IMG/VR virus record: IMGVR_UViG_3300033149_001584
Coordinates: 1 to 29,116 of that record
Length of the DNA: 29,116 bases
Direction: 5' to 3' (one strand)
Source of the DNA: a virus
Position 1 is the stretch's first letter. Every line of letters begins with the position of its first letter. The notes under the pieces are model-generated. The model did no database searches. It saw only the letters and a list, made by a program, of their open reading frames with translations, and was not told the origin of the DNA. The position numbers were made by a program, and so were the translations under genes. Shown piece by piece: positions 509 to 16,783 of the stretch.

Positions 509-2067
509 TTAAATTTGACACTACAAAATATTACTACGACAAGGCGGCTGCCGAGAAAGTTATCACTTTTATCGAGCGGTATATTCATCATGTTAAGGGC
601 GACCTGGCGGGTAAGCTTATCAAGTTGGAGCGGTGGCAGAAGGAAGATATTATAAAACCTATCTTTGGGATTAAGAAAAAGAAAGACGGCAAGCGACGGT
701 TTAAATATATCTATGTAGAGGTGCCAAAGGGAAATGCTAAAAGTACGCTGGGTGCCGCTATTGCCCTTTACTTATTATTAGCTGATGGAGCAAAAGGTGC
801 GGAGGTATATGGTGCTGCCGGGGATAGAGAGCAGGCAAGAATAATTTTCGAGATTGCAGAGGGTATGGTTATTGAAGAACCGGAACTATCATCCAGGTGT
901 ACGGTTTATCAGCATAGTATAAAGAAAGATAAATCTTTAAATTTTTACAGGGTTATCTCAGCCGAAGCAAAGACAAAGCATGGTTTTAATCCGAGCGGGT
1001 TGATTTTTGATGAGCTTCATGTGCAGACTAACAGGCAGTTGTATGATGCATTAAAGCAGGGTGCTATCAAGAGGCCCGGTGGCTTCATAATGGTTATGTT
1101 CACAACTGCCGGTTATGATAAGGAGACTATCTGTTATGAGGTTCATGAGTATGCTAATAAGATTAAAAAAGGAATTATTAAGGATGATACTTTTTTGCCC
1201 GTTATTTATTCGTGCGATCCGGAAGATGATATTTTCAGCCCTGCCGTATGGCGAAAAGCTAATCCTGGATTTGGTTCTATTGTACATAAGGAATTTTTTA
1301 AAGAACAGATAAATGAGATTAAGAATAGGCCTGCACATGAAAGCACCTTCCGCAGGCTTCACCTTAACCAGTGGGTAGGATCTGCCGAGACGTGGGTCGC
1401 TGATGATGTGTGGATGAAAAATTCTGATGAGCCTATTTGCGAAGGTGTCTGTTTTGGCGGGCTTGACCTGGCCACTGTCCGCGATGTGGCTGCTTTCATA
1501 CTTATCTTTCCCGGTGAAAAGGTTTCTGTATGGTCCTGCTTCTTTGTACCTGAAGATGCTGTACTTGAAAGAAGCCATAAGGAGGGTATTAATTATGATC
1601 TATGGGTTAAGCAAGGTTTTATTATCCCTACTCCCGGCAATGCTATTGATTATGATTTTATCGAGGCTAAGATACGCGAGGTGTCAGAGAAGTTTACTAT
1701 TCGATCAATCGGTTATGACCGCTGGATGTCAACACAGATAATCAATAATCTTTTAGATGATGGCTTCCCGATGGAGCAATTCGGCCAGGGTTATGCTTCG
1801 ATGAGTATGCCGACAAAAGAGTTAGAGAAGCTAGCCGTGTCGGGTGGGTTGGCTCACGGTGGTAATCCTGTATTGAGGTGGATGATGTCTAACGTGCAGA
1901 TCGAGAGTGATCCGGCAGATAATGTCAAGGTAACAAAGAAAAAGTCACGCGAGAAGGTTGATGGCGTGGTGGCACTTATCATGGCCCTGGGGCAGTGGAT
2001 GACTATGCGTGATGAGCCGCGGAGCAGATATGAAGATGATCCTGAAATTGAAAGTATATTTTTATGA
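505..2067 (+). CDS. terL: Phage terminase large subunit (ATPase and nuclease)
   Basis: This 520-residue packaging motor pumps DNA into the prohead and cuts it. The ATPase half has a Walker A-like loop PKGNAKST at residues 74-81, a Walker B LIFDE at 166-170 and a coupling motif TTAG at 200-203. The nuclease half has acidic residues expected of the RNase H-like fold: D321 in GGLDLATVRD, D405 in IGYDRW and D486 in EKVDGVVA. The length and order match the Terminase_1/HK97-like family that pairs with P27 small subunits. Its start overlaps terS, and its stop overlaps the first glycosyltransferase gene by 4 bases, so the sugar cassette is probably translated from the same transcript. No key residue appears to be missing. 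Confidence 0.95.
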   Translation: MIKFDTTKYYYDKAAAEKVITFIERYIHHVKGDLAGKLIKLERWQKEDIIKPIFGIKKKKDGKRRFKYIYVEVPKGNAKSTLGAAIALYLLLADGAKGAEVYGAAGDREQARIIFEIAEGMVIEEPELSSRCTVYQHSIKKDKSLNFYRVISAEAKTKHGFNPSGLIFDELHVQTNRQLYDALKQGAIKRPGGFIMVMFTTAGYDKETICYEVHEYANKIKKGIIKDDTFLPVIYSCDPEDDIFSPAVWRKANPGFGSIVHKEFFKEQINEIKNRPAHESTFRRLHLNQWVGSAETWVADDVWMKNSDEPICEGVCFGGLDLATVRDVAAFILIFPGEKVSVWSCFFVPEDAVLERSHKEGINYDLWVKQGFIIPTPGNAIDYDFIEAKIREVSEKFTIRSIGYDRWMSTQIINNLLDDGFPMEQFGQGYASMSMPTKELEKLAVSGGLAHGGNPVLRWMMSNVQIESDPADNVKVTKKKSREKVDGVVALIMALGQWMTMRDEPRSRYEDDPEIESIFL

Positions 2068-2969
2068 AAAAGATTCTCATCCTTACCCCTATGTGGGGCC
2101 GGCCGGAGATAGTTAAATTATTCTTACAGGGCTACCAGCGGGTAAAAAAATACTACTCTGAGCTTGAATTGGTTTGTATTATCTCACCTGAAGATAAATT
2201 CCGCAATCAGATCCTTGAGATGATAATCGAATATGGGGGTGATGTGTGCGAGTATTCTAATCGTTGGCTAGGTGAGAAAAAAAACGCAGGGCTTGACTTT
2301 GCAGATAGATGGTATGAATTTGATTATCTCATGGATCTGGGAAGCGATGATCTTCTGAATCCTGAGATATTCAAGCTCTACAAACCATACATGGAAAAGA
2401 ATACTCCTTTCTTTGGGTTGAATAACCTGTATATCCATGACTGGGAAACCAAAAGAACACTGTATCTGCCTGATTATAGCAACGGGCATACATTCGGGGC
2501 GGGGCGGATGCTGCATAACGACTCACGAAAAATACTACCCTGGCCTGACAGGGAGAATGATAACCTGGATATGCTGAGCCGGAAGATATTAAAAAGGGTA
2601 GGCGTTCATGAGACGGTCATTAATTCGGGGCGCACTCCATATGTGCTGGATATAAAATCAGCTACTAACATAGGACATTTTGAGCTGTTGAAGAACTGGC
2701 ATAGCTCTGAGGCGGTTGAGTTCTCAGAGATAAGTCATTATTTCGGGCTGCCTATCTATGAAGATTGGATCCTGGCATTGCAAAATATTGGAGGCTATGC
2801 GGGTCATGTTGATGCGCTGAAAAAGAAGGGCAGGACAGATAAGGCAGCCTATAAGGAGGTAGAGAATATTTATAAAATGTATTTCGGTAAAACTAAATAT
2901 AAAGACTATGAAGTATTCAGGATCGCAAGGTACCGCAGTAAGCATAATAATTCCCTACCTGGAGGATAG
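2064..2969 (+). CDS. Glycosyltransferase-like protein, GT-A fold (first of sugar cassette)
   Basis: This 301-residue protein starts with a Rossmann-like beta strand (KKILILTPMWGRPEIVKLF) and has an acidic DLGSDD motif at residues 91-96, where GT-A enzymes place the metal- and nucleotide-sugar-binding DxD. I infer that it transfers a sugar from a nucleotide donor; the acceptor is unknown. The C-terminal third (about 200-301) is predicted helical and matches no domain I recognise. It overlaps terL by 4 bases upstream and the next glycosyltransferase by 62 bases downstream. It could instead be a nucleotidyltransferase-like protein of the same fold. Confidence is good for the fold and moderate for the activity. 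Confidence 0.7.
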   Translation: MKKILILTPMWGRPEIVKLFLQGYQRVKKYYSELELVCIISPEDKFRNQILEMIIEYGGDVCEYSNRWLGEKKNAGLDFADRWYEFDYLMDLGSDDLLNPEIFKLYKPYMEKNTPFFGLNNLYIHDWETKRTLYLPDYSNGHTFGAGRMLHNDSRKILPWPDRENDNLDMLSRKILKRVGVHETVINSGRTPYVLDIKSATNIGHFELLKNWHSSEAVEFSEISHYFGLPIYEDWILALQNIGGYAGHVDALKKKGRTDKAAYKEVENIYKMYFGKTKYKDYEVFRIARYRSKHNNSLPGG

Positions 2970-3549
2970 GGGTTTTCTGAGTGAGGCCATTGCGAGCGCC
3001 GAAGCCCAGGCATTTGATTCATTCGAGGTCATCATATGGCAGGGTGATCACTCACTGGGTAAGAATATCAATGATGCGTTGAAGGTGGCTAAAGGTGAAT
3101 GGATAAAGATTTTAGCTGAAGATGATCTTTTGCCCGTTACCTCAATAGCTGACCTCTGGCAATATGCAAAGCGGGGTACGTACGATTGGTTATGCGGTGA
3201 TGCTCATAACTTCGGATTACTGGGAAATGACTGGCAGGGTCATGACGAGTGGATAGGCCATAAGGTCAACCTGAAAGAGATGACTATCCGCAATCAGATT
3301 CACGGCGGGACGACGATGTATAAAAAAAGTATGCTCTTTGAGGTTGGCGGGTACGATGAGTGCATAACCACAGGTGAGGAATATGATTTACATTTACTGC
3401 TTTTAGATAAAGGTTACAAGTTAGGATACGTCCCGAAAGTAGTTTATGAATACAGGTTGCATGAATATAACAAATCTATGGATATGAGCGTTAAGGCCAA
3501 AGAACTGCGCAAGGCTTATATCCGTGAGATTGCAAATAGATATAAATAA
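2908..3549 (+). CDS. Family 2 glycosyltransferase
   Basis: This 213-residue protein has the family 2 pattern: first strand VSIIIPYLEDRGFLSEAI (about residues 11-28), then EAQAFDSFEVII, and the metal-binding acidic motif AEDD at 70-73. The segment GGTTMYKKSMLFEVGGYDE with the later EEYDLHLLLLDKG is typical of GT2 enzymes, in which a conserved acidic pair lies in the acceptor half. The ATG at 2908 is kept because the first beta strand begins only ten residues later; the cost is an unusually long 62-base overlap with the preceding gene. The stop shares its last base with the next start (TAATG). It probably adds a sugar to a phage or host glycan; the substrate cannot be read from the sequence. 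Confidence 0.85.
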   Translation: MKYSGSQGTAVSIIIPYLEDRGFLSEAIASAEAQAFDSFEVIIWQGDHSLGKNINDALKVAKGEWIKILAEDDLLPVTSIADLWQYAKRGTYDWLCGDAHNFGLLGNDWQGHDEWIGHKVNLKEMTIRNQIHGGTTMYKKSMLFEVGGYDECITTGEEYDLHLLLLDKGYKLGYVPKVVYEYRLHEYNKSMDMSVKAKELRKAYIREIANRYK

Positions 3550-4103
3550 TGGATACACTATTAATTGCAGGATATGCCCGCTCAGGACTGACACTTACCA
3601 TGCAGTTGCTTCACTATGGTGGCTATCCCTGTTATGGCACCCCTCCCGCTTTTGAGGATTATGGGCGTATTAATCAGATAGACTATGGCGAGGCCGAAGG
3701 TAAGGCTGTGAAGATACCTGATATTTATAATCACTTCCCGCCAAAGGGTGATTATCGGGTTATCCGACTAAGGCGCAATTACCAGGAGCAGGCAAAGAGT
3801 GTTATTAAATTCATGAGGGTTATCGTGGGTCAGAGGGTTTATGATAACCGGAAAACACGCAGGGAGATAATCAGGTCATTGAAAAAAGAATATCATATTA
3901 TTGATCGTTGGGCCAAAAAACAGACGGCCTTAATGATACTTGATTTTGAGGATATAATTAACGACCCTGAGCTGACCCTTGAAATTTTATCAGATTTTAT
4001 TAATTTCAAGCTCGACCGCAAGGCGCTGAAATGTGTTATAAAAAGAAATACTGAATGTTATAACGGATTTATTGAAGCGCAAATATTAAATAGAAAATTA
4101 TGA
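3549..4103 (+). CDS. Sulfotransferase-like P-loop protein
   Basis: This 184-residue protein begins with a P-loop of sulfotransferase type, GYARSGLTLT at residues 8-17, resembling the PAPS 5'-phosphosulfate loop (G-x-x-R-S-G-T-T). A second segment, RLRRNYQEQAKSVIKF (about 73-88), fits the 3'-phosphate-binding region, where an Arg and a Ser contact the nucleotide. LDFEDIINDP (131-140) matches the conserved strand-helix seen before the C-terminus of these enzymes. I infer transfer of sulfate from PAPS to a sugar hydroxyl, because the gene sits between glycosyltransferases. At 184 residues it is shorter than most sulfotransferases (about 250-300), so it may be a minimal form. A kinase-like role for the P-loop is possible but less likely. 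Confidence 0.65.
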   Translation: MDTLLIAGYARSGLTLTMQLLHYGGYPCYGTPPAFEDYGRINQIDYGEAEGKAVKIPDIYNHFPPKGDYRVIRLRRNYQEQAKSVIKFMRVIVGQRVYDNRKTRREIIRSLKKEYHIIDRWAKKQTALMILDFEDIINDPELTLEILSDFINFKLDRKALKCVIKRNTECYNGFIEAQILNRKL

Positions 4104-4780
4104 AACATTGGATTTTTACCAGATTTAATCGGTTAGACCGACACACATCTATTTATAATAATTCAGTTATCCCAAACCCTCATGTATGGATGTATAAAAG
4201 AATGAAATTATTTGAAGAGATTACCCTTCCGTCGGTCATGGCGCAAAGTGTAAAAAACTTTACATGGCTATTATCCTTTGACATGCAGACTCCCAGATGG
4301 ATAATAAAAGAATATTCCAAACTGGATAATGTAGAGATTATTTACGATTATCCGAAAGATCATTTAATTAGCTTATATGGAACGGTTCTAAATAAAGGAG
4401 ACTGGATTATCACCTCCCGATTAGATAATGACGATATTATCTTACCTGAATATATCGAAAAGGTACAATCGTATTTTAATGAGGAATTTTTACTTGTGGA
4501 TACCGATGGGACGCAGTTGGAATTATCCACAGGCAAGGAATACACCGTCGAGCGCAGGAGTCAAAACTCGCCTTTTATCTCATTGATTGAACAGGTGGGA
4601 ATGCCTTATCGCAGCGTGTCGAAAGATTTCATAATAGACGAACCTGTTAAGACAGTATACTATTGCTCACATACTAAAATGGAATGGCATTTCCCGAGCC
4701 TGAAGATTCCGCAGAGGCTTTATAAGATGGTGATTCATGATCATAACGTATCAAATAAAATAATAGGAAAAGAGATATGA
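4100..4780 (+). CDS. Putative rhamnosyltransferase-like glycosyltransferase
   Basis: This 226-residue protein resembles the putative rhamnosyl transferase family (PF11316-like). It has MKHWIFTRFN at the N-terminus, then LPSVMAQSVKNFTWLLSFD (43-61) and TSRLDNDDIILPEYI (105-119). The last segment holds the metal-binding LDNDD. This order of LPSV, a Trp-containing strand and a TRLDNDD motif is characteristic. The donor sugar is not certain: the family name is historical. The gene overlaps both neighbours by 4 bases (ATGA), so the cassette is tightly coupled. By eye it is more AT-rich than the terminase genes, which would suit acquisition from another source. Confidence 0.75.
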   Translation: MKHWIFTRFNRLDRHTSIYNNSVIPNPHVWMYKRMKLFEEITLPSVMAQSVKNFTWLLSFDMQTPRWIIKEYSKLDNVEIIYDYPKDHLISLYGTVLNKGDWIITSRLDNDDIILPEYIEKVQSYFNEEFLLVDTDGTQLELSTGKEYTVERRSQNSPFISLIEQVGMPYRSVSKDFIIDEPVKTVYYCSHTKMEWHFPSLKIPQRLYKMVIHDHNVSNKIIGKEI

Positions 4781-5445
4781 TTATAGCACAAATAGCACAA
4801 ATAGCAAGCATACCCGAAAGGGCGCAGATGCTTAAAAAAACAGTTGAGAGCCTTTATCCACAGGTGGATGAACTGAATGTGATGCTGAATAATTATTCAT
4901 ACATTCCTCCCTGGCTTGAAAAGGAGAATATTAATGTAGTCGAGCTGGATAATTCAAAGGGCGACGGGGCTAAGTTCTATGGTCTGGAAAATAAGGAAGG
5001 TTTTATCTTTACCTGTGACGATGACCTGATCTATCCGACCGACTATGTACATGAGATGACTATGAAATTGTACGATTATAAGATCAGCGCCATCCTGACT
5101 AATCACGGAAGGGTGATGAATGACAAGCCCGTGACAAGTATTTACATGGATCGCAAAGCTACATACCACTGCCTTGAGACCGTGACCGATGAAGTGCATC
5201 TGGATATTGGAGGTACGGGCGTGATGGCTTTTCATACTCGCTATTTCCGACCTGACTATAATAAGATCCTCATTAAGAATATGGCAGATGTATGGATTGC
5301 CAAATTCGCACATGAGCAGGGGTGTAAGATCGTAATGAATCCACATCATAAAGATTGGCTTACCTACCAGCATCCTGACTGGACTATTTGGGATGAAGAA
5401 ATCAGGGAGCATTCCTTCCAAACAGAAATTTATAATTCCTTTTAG
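4777..5445 (+). CDS. Glycosyltransferase-like protein, last of sugar cassette
   Basis: This 222-residue protein has the pattern of short phage and Pasteurellaceae-type glycosyltransferases: IASIPERAQMLKKTVESL near the N-terminus, QVDELNVMLNNY (about 29-40), and the acidic motif CDDDLIYP (80-87). A glycine-rich stretch, LDIGGTGVMAFHTRYF, follows in the acceptor half. The start is ATG 4777, overlapping the upstream stop by 4 bases. The first codons contain a 9-base tandem repeat encoding IAQ-IAQ-IAS, so this end may vary in length without changing frame. The stop codon TAG is followed in frame by TAA. A hairpin with a T-run follows at once, which ends the cassette. Donor and acceptor are unknown. 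Confidence 0.7.
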   Translation: MIIAQIAQIASIPERAQMLKKTVESLYPQVDELNVMLNNYSYIPPWLEKENINVVELDNSKGDGAKFYGLENKEGFIFTCDDDLIYPTDYVHEMTMKLYDYKISAILTNHGRVMNDKPVTSIYMDRKATYHCLETVTDEVHLDIGGTGVMAFHTRYFRPDYNKILIKNMADVWIAKFAHEQGCKIVMNPHHKDWLTYQHPDWTIWDEEIREHSFQTEIYNSF

Positions 5446-5467
5446 TAACATTTGTTACATCTTTTTT
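5445..5467 (+). terminator. Probable weak intrinsic terminator after sugar cassette
   Basis: GTAAC-ATTT-GTTAC (5445-5458) can form a 5-bp stem with a four-base loop, followed after three bases by six T. The stem is AT-rich and short, so termination may be partial. It lies between the last glycosyltransferase and the portal gene, in the only real gap (68 bases) in the first 10 kb. The same symmetry could instead be an operator. Confidence 0.4.
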
Positions 5468-5513
5468 GATCGGGCTGTTATATTATAAGTAGACGGTCAT
5501 TAAAGATGTATTA

Positions 5514-6758
5514 ATGAAGTTTGAACTAGACGGGACATTCCCATTTATTCACAAAGAGGGTTACAGGCAAAGGCTTATTTCCGGTTTAGCTGCCGAGATA
5601 AGGGCTACGGTCAACTGGCCGAGCGCCGGCCTTGATACGTGGTTCGGTGGTGGGTATGATACAACTACCGCAGGCGTTAAAGTAAATCAGGATACAGCCC
5701 TGAAGCACGCTGCATACTGGAGAGCGATTAATCTACTCAGCTCACAGATAGGCAGTTTTCCTGTTGACCTTTTTAAAAGGCTTCCCGACGGTGACACCCA
5801 GGAGATAAAAGATCATCCTGGACTTAATCTTATCACCGAGAAACCAAACAACGTAAGCACCCCTTTCGTTTACCGCGAATCCGTGCAGGCCAATATATTG
5901 ACCTGGGGCAACGGGTATTCGTATATAAAAAGGGATATGAAGGGGACACCCCTGAGTTTGCATATCCAAGATCCTGTTAAGGTAAAGCCAAAGAGCGACG
6001 GCGCTGATATTGTTTATGACATCGGAAATAATATAGGTATTGATCCATATTTTATACTTCACATCCCAGGGTTGAGTTATGACGGAGTAAAAGGGTTGGC
6101 ACCTATCCAGGTAGCTGCCGAAAGCATCGGAGGTGGGCTGGGATTACAAAAATATTCAAATGAATTTATCGCTAACGGAGCCAAGCAGAGCGGGGTATTG
6201 ACTCACCCGATGGCCTTGAGTGATAAGGCGAGGGAAGGATTAAGGAAATCTTATGATAAAAAAATGAAGGGGCCGGATGGCGGGACTATGATACTGGACG
6301 AGGGCATGAAGTACCAGCCATTGACTATCCCTCCCGACCAGGCGCAATTTCTGGAAAGCCGTAAATTTTCTGTTAATGACATAGCCCGGTGGTTCGGCAT
6401 CCCTCCTCATCTATTATATGAAGAATCCCGCTCAACATTTAATAACATTGCCGAGCAGGGCATCTCTTTTGTCACTTATACCCTGACGCAATGGGTTGTA
6501 AGGTGGGAAGATGAGCTGAACCGCAAGCTATTAACAGAGGAAGAGAAGGAAGATCATTTTTTTAAATTTAATATGAACGCCCTTATGAGGGGTAATGCAA
6601 AGGATCGTTTCGAGGCGTATCGTGTGGGCCTTGATCTGGGTGTTTATTCGATCAACGAGATACGCAGGATAGAAGAGCTTAACAGCATAGACGGAGGTGA
6701 TCAGCACTTGGTACAGATAAATCGTGAACCTATAAATAAAACTAATCAAGATGGATAA
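5514..6758 (+). CDS. HK97-family portal protein
   Basis: This 414-residue protein forms the dodecameric ring through which DNA enters the capsid. Family features are visible: ALKHAAYWRAINLLSSQIGSFPVDLFKR (about 62-89), an HPGLNLITEKPN segment, ILTWGNGYSYIKRD (about 128-141), and a C-terminal stretch around DIARWFGIPPHLLYEES followed by FNNIAEQGISFVTYTLTQW, which in HK97 portals forms the stem and wing helices. The length matches the family (about 390-430). ATG 5514 is the first start after the intergenic hairpin. It overlaps the protease gene by 8 bases. The short gap upstream could hold a promoter but I see no convincing consensus there. Confidence 0.93.
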   Translation: MKFELDGTFPFIHKEGYRQRLISGLAAEIRATVNWPSAGLDTWFGGGYDTTTAGVKVNQDTALKHAAYWRAINLLSSQIGSFPVDLFKRLPDGDTQEIKDHPGLNLITEKPNNVSTPFVYRESVQANILTWGNGYSYIKRDMKGTPLSLHIQDPVKVKPKSDGADIVYDIGNNIGIDPYFILHIPGLSYDGVKGLAPIQVAAESIGGGLGLQKYSNEFIANGAKQSGVLTHPMALSDKAREGLRKSYDKKMKGPDGGTMILDEGMKYQPLTIPPDQAQFLESRKFSVNDIARWFGIPPHLLYEESRSTFNNIAEQGISFVTYTLTQWVVRWEDELNRKLLTEEEKEDHFFKFNMNALMRGNAKDRFEAYRVGLDLGVYSINEIRRIEELNSIDGGDQHLVQINREPINKTNQDG

Positions 6759-13389: not shown

Positions 13390-15338
13390 TGGCATATGTA
13401 ACAAAATATCAGCTTAATATTGCGGCCAATTATTTTGGCCAGGCGGTAGTATGTAATCTAAAAAAGCGGGATTATGCCGGGGCTTCGAGCTATCTAAAAG
13501 GTTCGGGTGACTCACCTATAATGCTTACTTATGATACGGCAAGCGATGATATTTTTAATCCTATAAACGGAACATACCTGACACTGAATATTATGGAAGA
13601 GGTCAGTTTTGCCCTTTCAGAACTTTATACGACCGACGCAAGGGAGTGGAGGGTTGAGTTATTGGTTGATGCCTCGACAGTGTTTGAAGGATTTATCCTT
13701 CCTGATATATTCCAGATGCCTTATAAAGATACACCATATCATATTTCTATCGTAGCGGCCGACCAGTTGGGGTACCTGAGGAATGTATATTTCGATCAGA
13801 AGAATATGTATGATAACTTACTTCTGATAAATATCATTGCGGCTTGTCTGGCAAAAACAGATCTGGGGCTTAATCTACGCGAGGCAGTAAATGTATATGA
13901 AGATGCCCAGGATTCAGGCAATGCTGATTCGCCGCTGGATCAGACATATGTTGACATGGAGGCTTATATCAATGATGACGGTACGATGATGGATTGCTAT
14001 ACTATACTGAGCGATCTGTTGAGAAATTTCCAGGCTATTTTACGACAGGTTAATGGTGAATGGCATATATGGAGGCCATCGGAGGCTTCAACTTCGTACA
14101 GGAGAAGGCTATGGACATGGGGCGAGGAAGCGCAAGGTTGGTTATACACATCAAATGCATTATATAATCCTGTCAAATCTACAACTTCTTCGAGCGGATC
14201 ACCACTTATCCGGATCATGGATAATGGTTCACTAATGACGATCCCTCCATGGAAGCAATACATATTAAAGAGACATTATAAGAAGAGGAAGAGCATATTA
14301 TTAAATCATAATTTTACAGACTGGATTGATTTTAATACACCAATGAACTGGACTAAGTCAGATAGTCCTACTGTTTCTCGACACGATAATGGCGTACTTA
14401 TCTATGCCGACACAGCCGCACCGTATGGGTTATTATTACAGACAGCGCCGATTAAAGTTATCACTCCAATGAGTGATTCGACATGGAAAATAAAAGTCAG
14501 GTACACAATATTTGTTCCAGGCACAAAAGAGGCTGATCTTTATATCACTATTTTGCTGTGGCCGACCGCACCGCTTGATCAATGGTCGTGGGTTGGTAAC
14601 GTATGGGGAGTATCAAATGACCCTATTAAATCAGTGGATAATTCAGGTAATGCGGGTGCATATTATGAATCATTTGATGCTGAATTTGTTATTAATAATT
14701 ATTCATCAGACTATGGAGAGGTGAATCTATCGGCAAGCATATCATTACATGGTGATGACGCAACGGCTTTTGCTATAGTTGAATATATTGAACTATCTAT
14801 CACTAACCATGAAAGTCAGTACGGTGACGCTCCTGAGAACCTTGAGCAACTTGTCACGGTCAATGATAATAATAACTACATTGCAGATGATATCAATCTT
14901 TTATCGGGTGAGCTTCCTGATTTGCTTGTATATGACCGACGCGGTGATACCTATACGCCTGTTGCAAATAAGAGGTTGATATACGGTAGTGGCTTTTATA
15001 ATGACGCTGCCAGGGATGATCTTTGTGAGGACTGGGAAGACCCGGATGCAACAGGACAGAAAAGCCTATTGTCATTATTAAAGGAAAAAATAGGTAATCA
15101 ATACAGATATCCGACAGAGATGATATCATGTGATATCCTGACGTCGCAGATAGTGGGTGACTCAACAATCCAGGAAATCAATAACTCGAATAATCTGTAT
15201 ATGATAAACCGGGATACATGGAATTTGAAAAGTGGGGTGCATACTATCGAGATGACACAAATCTACAATATCGGCAAATTACTATTAGAGACGGGTGATT
15301 TCTTATTAACTGAAGCGGGCGATAAAATTATACTATAA
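13389..15338 (+). CDS. Distal tail / baseplate hub-like structural protein
   Basis: This 649-residue protein follows the tape measure gene, where the distal tail and hub proteins lie. Its first ~140 residues (KYQLNIAANYFGQAVVCNLK, SFALSELYTTDAREWRVELL, FEGFILPDIFQMPYKDTPYH, SIVAADQLGYLRN) form a pattern seen in tail-tip proteins of Bacteroidota phages: a beta-rich domain with a G-(F/Y)-(I/V)-x-P-D motif and an A-x-D-x-L-G-x-L-(K/R) motif. The middle and C-terminal parts are beta-rich with many Asn and Thr and may include a carbohydrate-binding-like sandwich (about 305-480). There is no signal peptide, unlike the next five genes. It is more likely hub than fibre, but the exact role is inferred from order. 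Confidence 0.65.
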   Translation: MAYVTKYQLNIAANYFGQAVVCNLKKRDYAGASSYLKGSGDSPIMLTYDTASDDIFNPINGTYLTLNIMEEVSFALSELYTTDAREWRVELLVDASTVFEGFILPDIFQMPYKDTPYHISIVAADQLGYLRNVYFDQKNMYDNLLLINIIAACLAKTDLGLNLREAVNVYEDAQDSGNADSPLDQTYVDMEAYINDDGTMMDCYTILSDLLRNFQAILRQVNGEWHIWRPSEASTSYRRRLWTWGEEAQGWLYTSNALYNPVKSTTSSSGSPLIRIMDNGSLMTIPPWKQYILKRHYKKRKSILLNHNFTDWIDFNTPMNWTKSDSPTVSRHDNGVLIYADTAAPYGLLLQTAPIKVITPMSDSTWKIKVRYTIFVPGTKEADLYITILLWPTAPLDQWSWVGNVWGVSNDPIKSVDNSGNAGAYYESFDAEFVINNYSSDYGEVNLSASISLHGDDATAFAIVEYIELSITNHESQYGDAPENLEQLVTVNDNNNYIADDINLLSGELPDLLVYDRRGDTYTPVANKRLIYGSGFYNDAARDDLCEDWEDPDATGQKSLLSLLKEKIGNQYRYPTEMISCDILTSQIVGDSTIQEINNSNNLYMINRDTWNLKSGVHTIEMTQIYNIGKLLLETGDFLLTEAGDKIIL

Positions 15339-16783
15339 TGAAAACAATAAAATGGATTTTTCTTTTGTTGGCCTTTTGCCTTGCGGCTCAGGGTCAGGAC
15401 TCAAAAATTTCAGACTTAGCATCGGCTTCGCAGTCATTGAACGATGCCGACCTGTTTGTAGTTCTTCAATCGGCTACAACAAAAAAATATACTTTTGATA
15501 ACTTGCAGGAGGATGTATTTGAACAGATTCCTTTCCGATCAAATAACGCTGGACTTAATGAAAATATATTATTTGGTACAAATACTGGAGCCTCCTATAG
15601 TTCAGGAAACAACAATATAGGTATCGGAGTTGATATTTTTGACGCTCTAAATGGTGCTAATGGCAATATCGCAATTGGAAGTGATTGTTATGACAAAATT
15701 ACGACGGGTGATTACAATATTGGGTTAGGTCATAACACAGCCAACAATATTACAGATGGCATTGGTAATATATTCATGGGGCGATGGACTGCTTTAGTTG
15801 CCACATCACCCGATTATTGTATTGGATTAGGATATACAAGTTTATATAATTTATCCACGGCACAGGATGTTATCGCGATTGGTAGGTCATCATTGTATAG
15901 TGTTACGACAGGCAATTATAATATCGGAATAGGATTTGAAGCAGGAAAATCAATAACTACCAATACAGGCACATTTATTGGTTATCAGGCAGGAGAGCTT
16001 ACCACAGGCGACGGCAACACTTTTGTCGGAGAGGGGGCGGGAGATATAAATACATCTGGAGCAGCTAATGAGGCATTTGGAAAAAATGCTTTAGGGGCTA
16101 ATGTTACAGGTGGAAATAATGTAGCTATCGGAAGCTCAGCGCTTGCAGCAAATTTAAGTAATCAGAATACGGCAATCGGTTCAGGAGCAGCGGCAGCAGC
16201 AGTGGCAGCAGGGTGCGTGTATATAGGCTATCAGGCAGGATCAACCAACGAAACTAACAATCTGTTATTTATTGAAAATTCCAACACCCTGACAGATGTA
16301 TTGATTTTTGGTGACTTTACAAATGACGAGGTGATCATTAACGGGCAGGCATCTGATAACGCTAATAGCAGAACATTTTTCGTAGAGGGCACAGCAGGCG
16401 GTCTGGGGGTATGGAATAACGATTCAGATTCAACATTGAAAAAAGATGTATCAACGATTACCGGCGCATTGGATAAGGTGATGCAGCTGAGGGGCGTTAA
16501 TTTTAAATGGATAGATGAGCGCGAACCAGGCAATCAGGTCGGGTTTATAGCTCAGGAAGTCAACAGGGTTGTTCCTGAGATTGTTGTTGGTGAGTCAGGC
16601 ACGATGTCAATACAGACAGCTTCCATGACGGCGGTGCTTGTCAATGCAATGCAAGAGCAGCAAGCGCAAATACGATCTTTATCAACATTATTATATGTAT
16701 CTTTTGTATTAATTATAATATGCTTCTCCCTGATTGTTCTTTCATATAGAAGAAAAACTAATTATTTAAAAATAGAAAAATGA
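15338..16783 (+). CDS. Exported fibre-like protein: YadA-head-like repeats, S74 chaperone domain, C-terminal TM
   Basis: The 481-residue protein has four parts. Residues 1-19 are a signal peptide (KTIKWIFLLLAFCLAAQG) with Gln20 after the predicted cut. Residues about 75-300 contain a dozen or so repeats of the N-x-(I/V/A)-x-I-G-x-G type, like YadA head or other trimeric beta-roll fibres. Residues about 362-440 are an S74-type intramolecular chaperone: SDSTLKKDV has the usual Ser and Lys, followed by LRGVNFKWIDER and QVGFIAQEVNRVVPE. Residues 451-470 are a hydrophobic helix, followed by RRK. The fibre would trimerise, then self-cleave at or near Ser363. Export plus a tail anchor is not what I expect of a cytoplasmically assembled tail fibre. 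It might be a secreted adhesin. Confidence 0.75.
   Translation: MKTIKWIFLLLAFCLAAQGQDSKISDLASASQSLNDADLFVVLQSATTKKYTFDNLQEDVFEQIPFRSNNAGLNENILFGTNTGASYSSGNNNIGIGVDIFDALNGANGNIAIGSDCYDKITTGDYNIGLGHNTANNITDGIGNIFMGRWTALVATSPDYCIGLGYTSLYNLSTAQDVIAIGRSSLYSVTTGNYNIGIGFEAGKSITTNTGTFIGYQAGELTTGDGNTFVGEGAGDINTSGAANEAFGKNALGANVTGGNNVAIGSSALAANLSNQNTAIGSGAAAAAVAAGCVYIGYQAGSTNETNNLLFIENSNTLTDVLIFGDFTNDEVIINGQASDNANSRTFFVEGTAGGLGVWNNDSDSTLKKDVSTITGALDKVMQLRGVNFKWIDEREPGNQVGFIAQEVNRVVPEIVVGESGTMSIQTASMTAVLVNAMQEQQAQIRSLSTLLYVSFVLIIICFSLIVLSYRRKTNYLKIEK

Follow-up and report, generated by a model that had tools for sequence, protein, structure and literature searches.

Mycobacteriophages glycosylate their capsid and tail tube with glycosyltransferases (GTs) of their own (PMC12363180), and for Che8, Corndog and Myrna a capsid or tail target of phage-encoded GTs has been proposed (Freeman et al. 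2023, as reported in PMC12363180 and PMC11256854). GTs are likewise encoded in the 29,116-base IMG/VR virus record IMGVR_UViG_3300033149_001584, referred to here as the window, but in this case there are four different GTs together with a sulfotransferase, they lie between the large terminase gene (terL) and the portal gene, and the system is known here from its genes. By contrast, the GTs of a cluster F1 relative among the mycobacteriophages are reported in PMC11256854 to be near the 3' end of the genome. Genes with sulfotransferase domains have also been described in OM43 phages and in Synechococcus phage S-SRM01, where, unlike in the window, they are not reported beside GTs, and the function of phage sulfotransferases is stated to be unclear (PMC10580990). 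In the literature consulted, no phage cassette of such make-up and no sulfated virion was found described.

Phage-encoded virion glycosylation is already known, and what would be new here is the conserved slot between terL and portal, the KfiA-type enzyme and the sulfotransferase. The favoured explanation, to which a probability of roughly 0.55 is assigned, is that the cassette encodes a cytosolic, late-expressed pathway by which virion proteins receive a glycan, sulfated in the lineage of the window.

Organization and enzymes of the cassette

Five open reading frames (ORFs) on the + strand occupy positions 2064–5445, with terL upstream and the portal gene downstream.

505–2067, + strand: terL, large terminase, its stop overlapping gene 1 by 4 bases (PF20441 6.9e-39, PF03354 2.2e-20, phrog_9 1.6e-160)
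2064–2969, + strand: gene 1, predicted GT-A glycosyltransferase of a phage family that has no Pfam or PHROG name (predicted fold, GSDD motif)
2908–3549, + strand: gene 2, GT2 glycosyltransferase (PF00535 3.8e-8)
3549–4103, + strand: gene 3, single-domain sulfotransferase of the PAPS (3'-phosphoadenosine 5'-phosphosulfate) type (PF00685 2.2e-5, alignment, model)
4100–4780, + strand: gene 4, PF11316 putative rhamnosyltransferase, GT-A (6e-18)
4777–5445, + strand: gene 5, KfiA/PmHS2 N-acetylglucosamine (GlcNAc)-transferase family (phmmer and profile)
5446–5513, + strand: intergenic hairpin before the portal gene, with the conserved promoter-like TATATTATAAGTAGA at 5479–5493 (folding, motif conservation)
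5514–6758, + strand: portal protein (PF04860 1.5e-98)

The overlaps are 4 bases between terL and gene 1, 62 between genes 1 and 2, 1 between genes 2 and 3, and 4 at each of the last two junctions, which is exactly the arrangement described in an earlier sequence-only reading of this DNA. The identities of TerL, portal, prohead protease and major capsid protein (MCP) were confirmed with Pfam and PHROGs.

That genes 1, 2, 4 and 5 encode four GT-A-type proteins, as had been read from the sequence, is supported by Pfam, predicted fold and homology to KfiA/PmHS2. Both gene 2 (Glycos_transf_2, 33.9 bits against a cut-off of 23.3) and gene 4 (Rhamno_transf, 65.6 bits against 23) score above the curated Pfam values. 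There is nothing in Pfam, PHROG or NCBIfam for gene 1, which on its AlphaFold model (pLDDT 80; VIA Z 17.8 to WrtF 9omh and 17.6 to 6p61) is predicted to be a GT-A glycosyltransferase. For gene 5 there is no significant Pfam match, while a single-sequence phmmer search finds heparosan synthase 2 (PmHS2, 8vh7) at 3e-19 over query residues 8–212 and KfiA (5z8b) at 1.2e-11, and a profile search finds these two solved proteins at 1.2e-37 and 1.6e-27. The TCDDD, HG, GTG and MAD motifs are retained, and by homology gene 5 is assigned to the GT-A family of KfiA/heparosan-synthase GlcNAc-transferases; KfiA is cited in PMC12834895 as an alpha-UDP-GlcNAc glycosyltransferase. Nearly the full length of gene 5 can be aligned with the GlcNAc-transferase domain of PmHS2 but, in contrast to heparosan synthesis in E. 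coli K5 and Pasteurella, gene 5 stands alone in a phage head module with no KfiC-like partner identified, and nothing points to a heparosan polymer. When a partner glucuronosyltransferase for such a polymer was sought, gene 2 gave a weak match to chondroitin synthase (E 0.05). Sequence searches of the PDB with gene 1, gene 4 or gene 3 alone gave no usable match.

Gene 3, which had been called sulfotransferase-like, is just above the Pfam cut-off for Sulfotransfer_1 (24.4 bits against 22), and its predicted fold is that of a sulfotransferase. The model, built on 17 phage homologs (pLDDT 84), aligns over 171 residues with SULT7A1 (5x2b; VIA Z 13.9, root-mean-square deviation 3.1), and its top-ranked structural matches are all sulfotransferases. 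Residues R11, S12, G13, K55, R76 and S84 are invariant in the alignment of the 17 homologs; the PAPS-binding residues R11, S12 and G13 are thus kept, making up the 5'-phosphosulfate and 3'-phosphate sites with R76 and S84, and in the PRSGTS motif the P and T are replaced by A and L. Alignment and model support the assignment of gene 3 as a PAPS-type sulfotransferase, which shares the fold and cofactor loops of the PAPS-dependent enzymes (PF00685/PF13469) and differs in being a short single domain of 184 amino acids (aa). The closest cellular relatives found are the C-terminal domains, about 28% identical, of phosphodiesterase-TPR proteins of about 870 aa in Bacteroidia; loci L023–L037 encode such proteins, in which a phosphodiesterase-like and a TPR-like part are combined with a sulfotransferase part at the C-terminus.

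The same site in related phages

The sequence-only reading had proposed looking for cassettes at the same place in related phages, and the order terL, gene 1, gene 2, gene 4, gene 5, portal recurs in four other uncultured phages (L041, L105, L106 and L115), with further genes between gene 5 and portal in L115. Identities between L106 and the window are 63% for TerL, 47% for gene 1, 61% for gene 2, 53% for gene 4, 57% for gene 5, 51% for portal and 48% for capsid. The L106 copy of gene 2 matches PF00535 at 1.2e-13, and that of L105 is 56% identical to gene 2 of the window; the remaining gene 4 orthologs are 56% (L105), 45% (L115) and 38% (L041) identical. In L005 and L006, with portals about 60% identical, gene 5 precedes portal and the contigs are cut off upstream. 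Over eight phages, which fall into few clades and therefore represent fewer than eight independent points, gene-5 identity follows portal identity with r 0.967 (permutation p 2e-4) and MCP identity with r 0.956; portal and MCP follow each other with r 0.934, so that gene 5 tracks portal as tightly. The conserved order and this co-divergence indicate, from comparison of sequences, that the four-GT cassette is an old part of the head module at the terL–portal site, and they rule out a recent insertion of the whole cassette.

There is no sulfotransferase at the gene 2/gene 4 junction in any of the four syntenic relatives. Between genes 2 and 4 there is a 14-base overlap in L106 and L115, a 12-base gap in L105 and, in L041, a stretch with three small ORFs (67, 59 and 52 aa). 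The sulfotransferase would most simply be a gain at this junction in the lineage of the window. The earlier description of the cassette as inserted would therefore hold for the sulfotransferase and not for the four GTs. Nor is the cassette an assembly join, given the same gene order in these four phages and a near-identical second contig, IMGVR_UViG_3300033153_004979, which is identical to the window across the 14,755 bases compared except at base 9, although the two contigs are possibly not independent. Both begin at the same base, just upstream of terS, a shared start that may mark a physical end of the genome or a branch point in the assembly. Neither outcome that the sequence-only reading had named as speaking against it, a gene 3 product outside the sulfotransferase fold or the lack of any trace of the cassette in close relatives, was thus observed.

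A larger cassette fills the terL–portal interval of L042 (2784–8349), with genes for a radical SAM protein, gene 1, a fused GT/gene 5, GT25-like and GT11 enzymes, a methyltransferase-like protein and more; the same phage has an ORF resembling a DNA methyltransferase in the interval from terS to terL. In L011 (TerL 48%) other GT-like and methyltransferase-like genes follow terL, as assigned by reading the sequence and not by scanning.

Homologs in other phages and in Bacteroidia

The gene-5 family is present in 42 viral contigs. Members of the gene-1 family occur in 139, and 80 of these were retrieved. The loci compared were 58 distinct ones for gene 1 and 40 for gene 5. At 21 of the 58 gene-1 loci the homolog occupies precisely the slot flanked by the gp6-like head-tail connector gene (PF05135) and the head completion gene (PF05521), at 11 it comes directly after terL, and the gene-5 homolog is directly upstream of portal at 10 of 40. 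Among 395 Bacteroidia genomes, both families are nearly absent, the exception being the metagenome-assembled genome (MAG) G005, two contigs of which are phage-like. Fusion proteins joining another GT domain to a KfiA-like one are encoded in phage-like contigs from a Bacteroidia MAG (L018 4717–6288 and L019 577–2811). A tblastn search of 50,697 phage records with the five cassette proteins and their homologs gave no match. Bacteroidota are tentatively favoured as the host, with gene-5 homologs in phage-like contigs of a Bacteroidia MAG, yet the best named matches of TerL are to Firmicutes phages, at 44%.

Small phage homologs of gene 3 are found in 18 contigs. A sulfotransferase directly follows a P22-like portal gene in L080 (3104–3685, confirmed by Pfam) and, in the same layout, in L081 (2208–2825), with no GT recognised near it in either. 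Small sulfotransferases also occur directly before terL (L085), before a pectate-lyase/collagen fibre gene (L084), and before portal with one minus-strand ORF call between (L089). At L063 (8480–10358), three genes are joined as a trio by 1-base overlaps: one is sulfotransferase-like, one is homologous to gene 5 and one to gene 1. The order there is head morphogenesis, 122 aa ORF, sulfotransferase-like gene, gene 5, gene 1, scaffold, MCP. This phage is unrelated, its terminase, portal and capsid being of a different type from those of the window, and of the 116 loci that carry gene 1 or gene 5 it is the only other one with a sulfotransferase, which bears out the earlier remark that a phage sulfotransferase beside GTs is unusual.

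Proposed target of the glycan and alternative explanations

The coupling to terL and the position before portal suggest late expression. No membrane-like segment is present in any of the five proteins (maximum KD19 0.72–1.04), and genes for a flippase or for making sugar nucleotides were not seen, for which reason the pathway would be cytosolic and supplied with sugar nucleotides and PAPS by the host. The four GT-A enzymes would in successive steps build up a short oligosaccharide attached directly to at least one virion protein of the head, portal, connector or tail; gene 5 most likely adds a GlcNAc-type sugar and gene 4 may add a rhamnose-type deoxysugar. In the lineage of the window, gene 3 would then move sulfate from PAPS onto the glycan or, less likely, onto the protein itself. 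The particle surface would gain a negative, variable coat, which could alter recognition by antibodies or receptors, adsorption or stability.

Among the virion, the host surface and DNA, the three targets proposed in the sequence-only reading, the virion appears best supported, through the late location in the head module, the recurrence inside other head modules and the absence of membrane and flippase genes; the scarcity of the gene-1 and gene-5 families in Bacteroidia genomes outside phage-like contigs adds to this, and the mycobacteriophages provide a precedent. Several points weigh against it. The virion target is read from gene arrangement and genomics, and a phage location is no proof of it, since GTs of a late operon could act on the host surface. 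None of the four GTs can be singled out as a priming O-glycosyltransferase, several gene-5 homologs are far from the terminase, and the sulfotransferase of L063 is below the Pfam cut-off (E 0.014); by hhalign, its cofactor half aligns to the phage profile (93%, E 3e-7). The number of homologs within 3 genes of a head marker does not exceed what random ORFs give on these short, marker-rich contigs (46 against 41.6, and 21 against 18.6), so proximity is uninformative on such contigs and the head-module argument depends on the exact slots and the gene order.

It is unlikely that the enzymes instead act during infection or lysogeny to change the lipopolysaccharide or capsule of the host, with superinfection block or serotype change as the result. 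The KfiA and PF11316 families are known from capsule and surface polysaccharide biosynthesis, surface modification is common for phage GTs, and gene 2 has a weak GtrB-like PHROG match (0.0027). However, the cassette is without a flippase, a polyprenol-linked membrane GT or a membrane segment and so does not resemble a Gtr-type system, it sits in the packaging and head module coupled to terL, and the homologs of genes 1 and 5, so rare in host genomes, are nested among head-completion genes. Rather less probable still is that the four GTs glycosylate virions while gene 3 acts elsewhere, for example on tyrosines of virion proteins or on a host small molecule. This would fit the sulfotransferases of L080, L081 and L085, beside portal or terL with no GT seen nearby, and the acceptor is not readable from sequence, but gene 3 is inside the GT operon with overlaps of 1 and 4 bases, and L063 again joins a sulfotransferase-like gene to homologs of genes 5 and 1.

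Glycosylation of modified bases in phage DNA, with sulfate as a further decoration, is very unlikely. Virus-encoded GTs that modify DNA are known (cited in PMC12619734) and the cassette adjoins the terminase; on the other hand, no base-hydroxymethylating or similar enzyme is found among the window proteins scanned, from a record that may be incomplete, and the association is with head, portal and connector genes and not with replication genes. The 36% G+C of gene 4, lower than in its neighbours, would be in keeping with a passenger cassette or assembly artefact that has no function at the site, a highly improbable explanation in view of the same order in five phages, the kept active-site motifs and the near-identical second contig.

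If the virion glycan is real, glycan decoration is built into the head module of a group of uncultured phages as a conserved component. Its core of four enzymes would then have persisted through deep divergence, combined with exchangeable add-ons: sulfate in the window, and radical-SAM, fucosyltransferase-like and methyltransferase-like genes in L042. That some phages make sulfated particles, through a head-module operon in which a PAPS sulfotransferase joins a KfiA-type GlcNAc-transferase and three further GTs to give a sulfated, GlcNAc-containing virion glycan, is proposed tentatively and at rather less than even odds; a truly glycosaminoglycan-like sulfated chain would be a much less likely special case, hardly to be expected. 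Sulfated virions would be a new phage surface chemistry, bearing on antibody recognition, binding to mucus and particles and adsorption to the host, and would provide a role for the phage sulfotransferases of unclear function (PMC10580990). The gene-1 and gene-5 families would then be a genome marker for finding glycosylated phages.

The intergenic region and other observations

The sequence-only reading had the cassette closed by a hairpin. The hairpin is real, folding at 5446–5515 better than shuffled sequences (z -4.8 to -5.1), but it has no T-run and is not terminator-like, so that its role as a terminator is not supported. A promoter-like block, TATATTA[T/C]A(A)GTAGA, is shared by three phages in the interval from gene 5 to portal, at 5479–5493 in the window, 601–614 in L005 and 644–657 in L006; its conservation before portal suggests that the cassette ends one transcription unit. 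A similar ...TATRTTAAGYRATATAG block precedes portal in L050, L059 and L068. In L006 a tRNA-Met gene (674–748) lies between the gene-5 homolog and portal. Rfam and tRNA searches of the window gave no match.

The gene-5 homologs of L050 (1511–2161) and L068 (3743–4399) have 77.7% DNA identity, uneven along the gene, whereas the adjoining portal region is less diverged, at 89% over 2.9 kb and 98% for the portal protein, a pattern suggestive of recombination or of diversifying change.

The C-terminal residues of gene 1, about 232–296, resemble a separate small ORF of 66–88 aa just upstream of portal in other phages (z 8–13), which is found at the following positions.

L010: 2671–2880
L107: 4230–4460
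L108: 1990–2190
L111: 7606–7854
L116: 1–264

The 69-aa ORF of L010 was considered as a decayed remnant of gene 1 and this was rejected, as L107, L108, L111 and L116 have the same small ORF as a gene of its own ahead of portal; it would appear to be a recurrent, unnamed small protein or domain. Further downstream in the window, 15338–16783 encodes a tail-fibre-like protein with an S74 endosialidase-chaperone domain.

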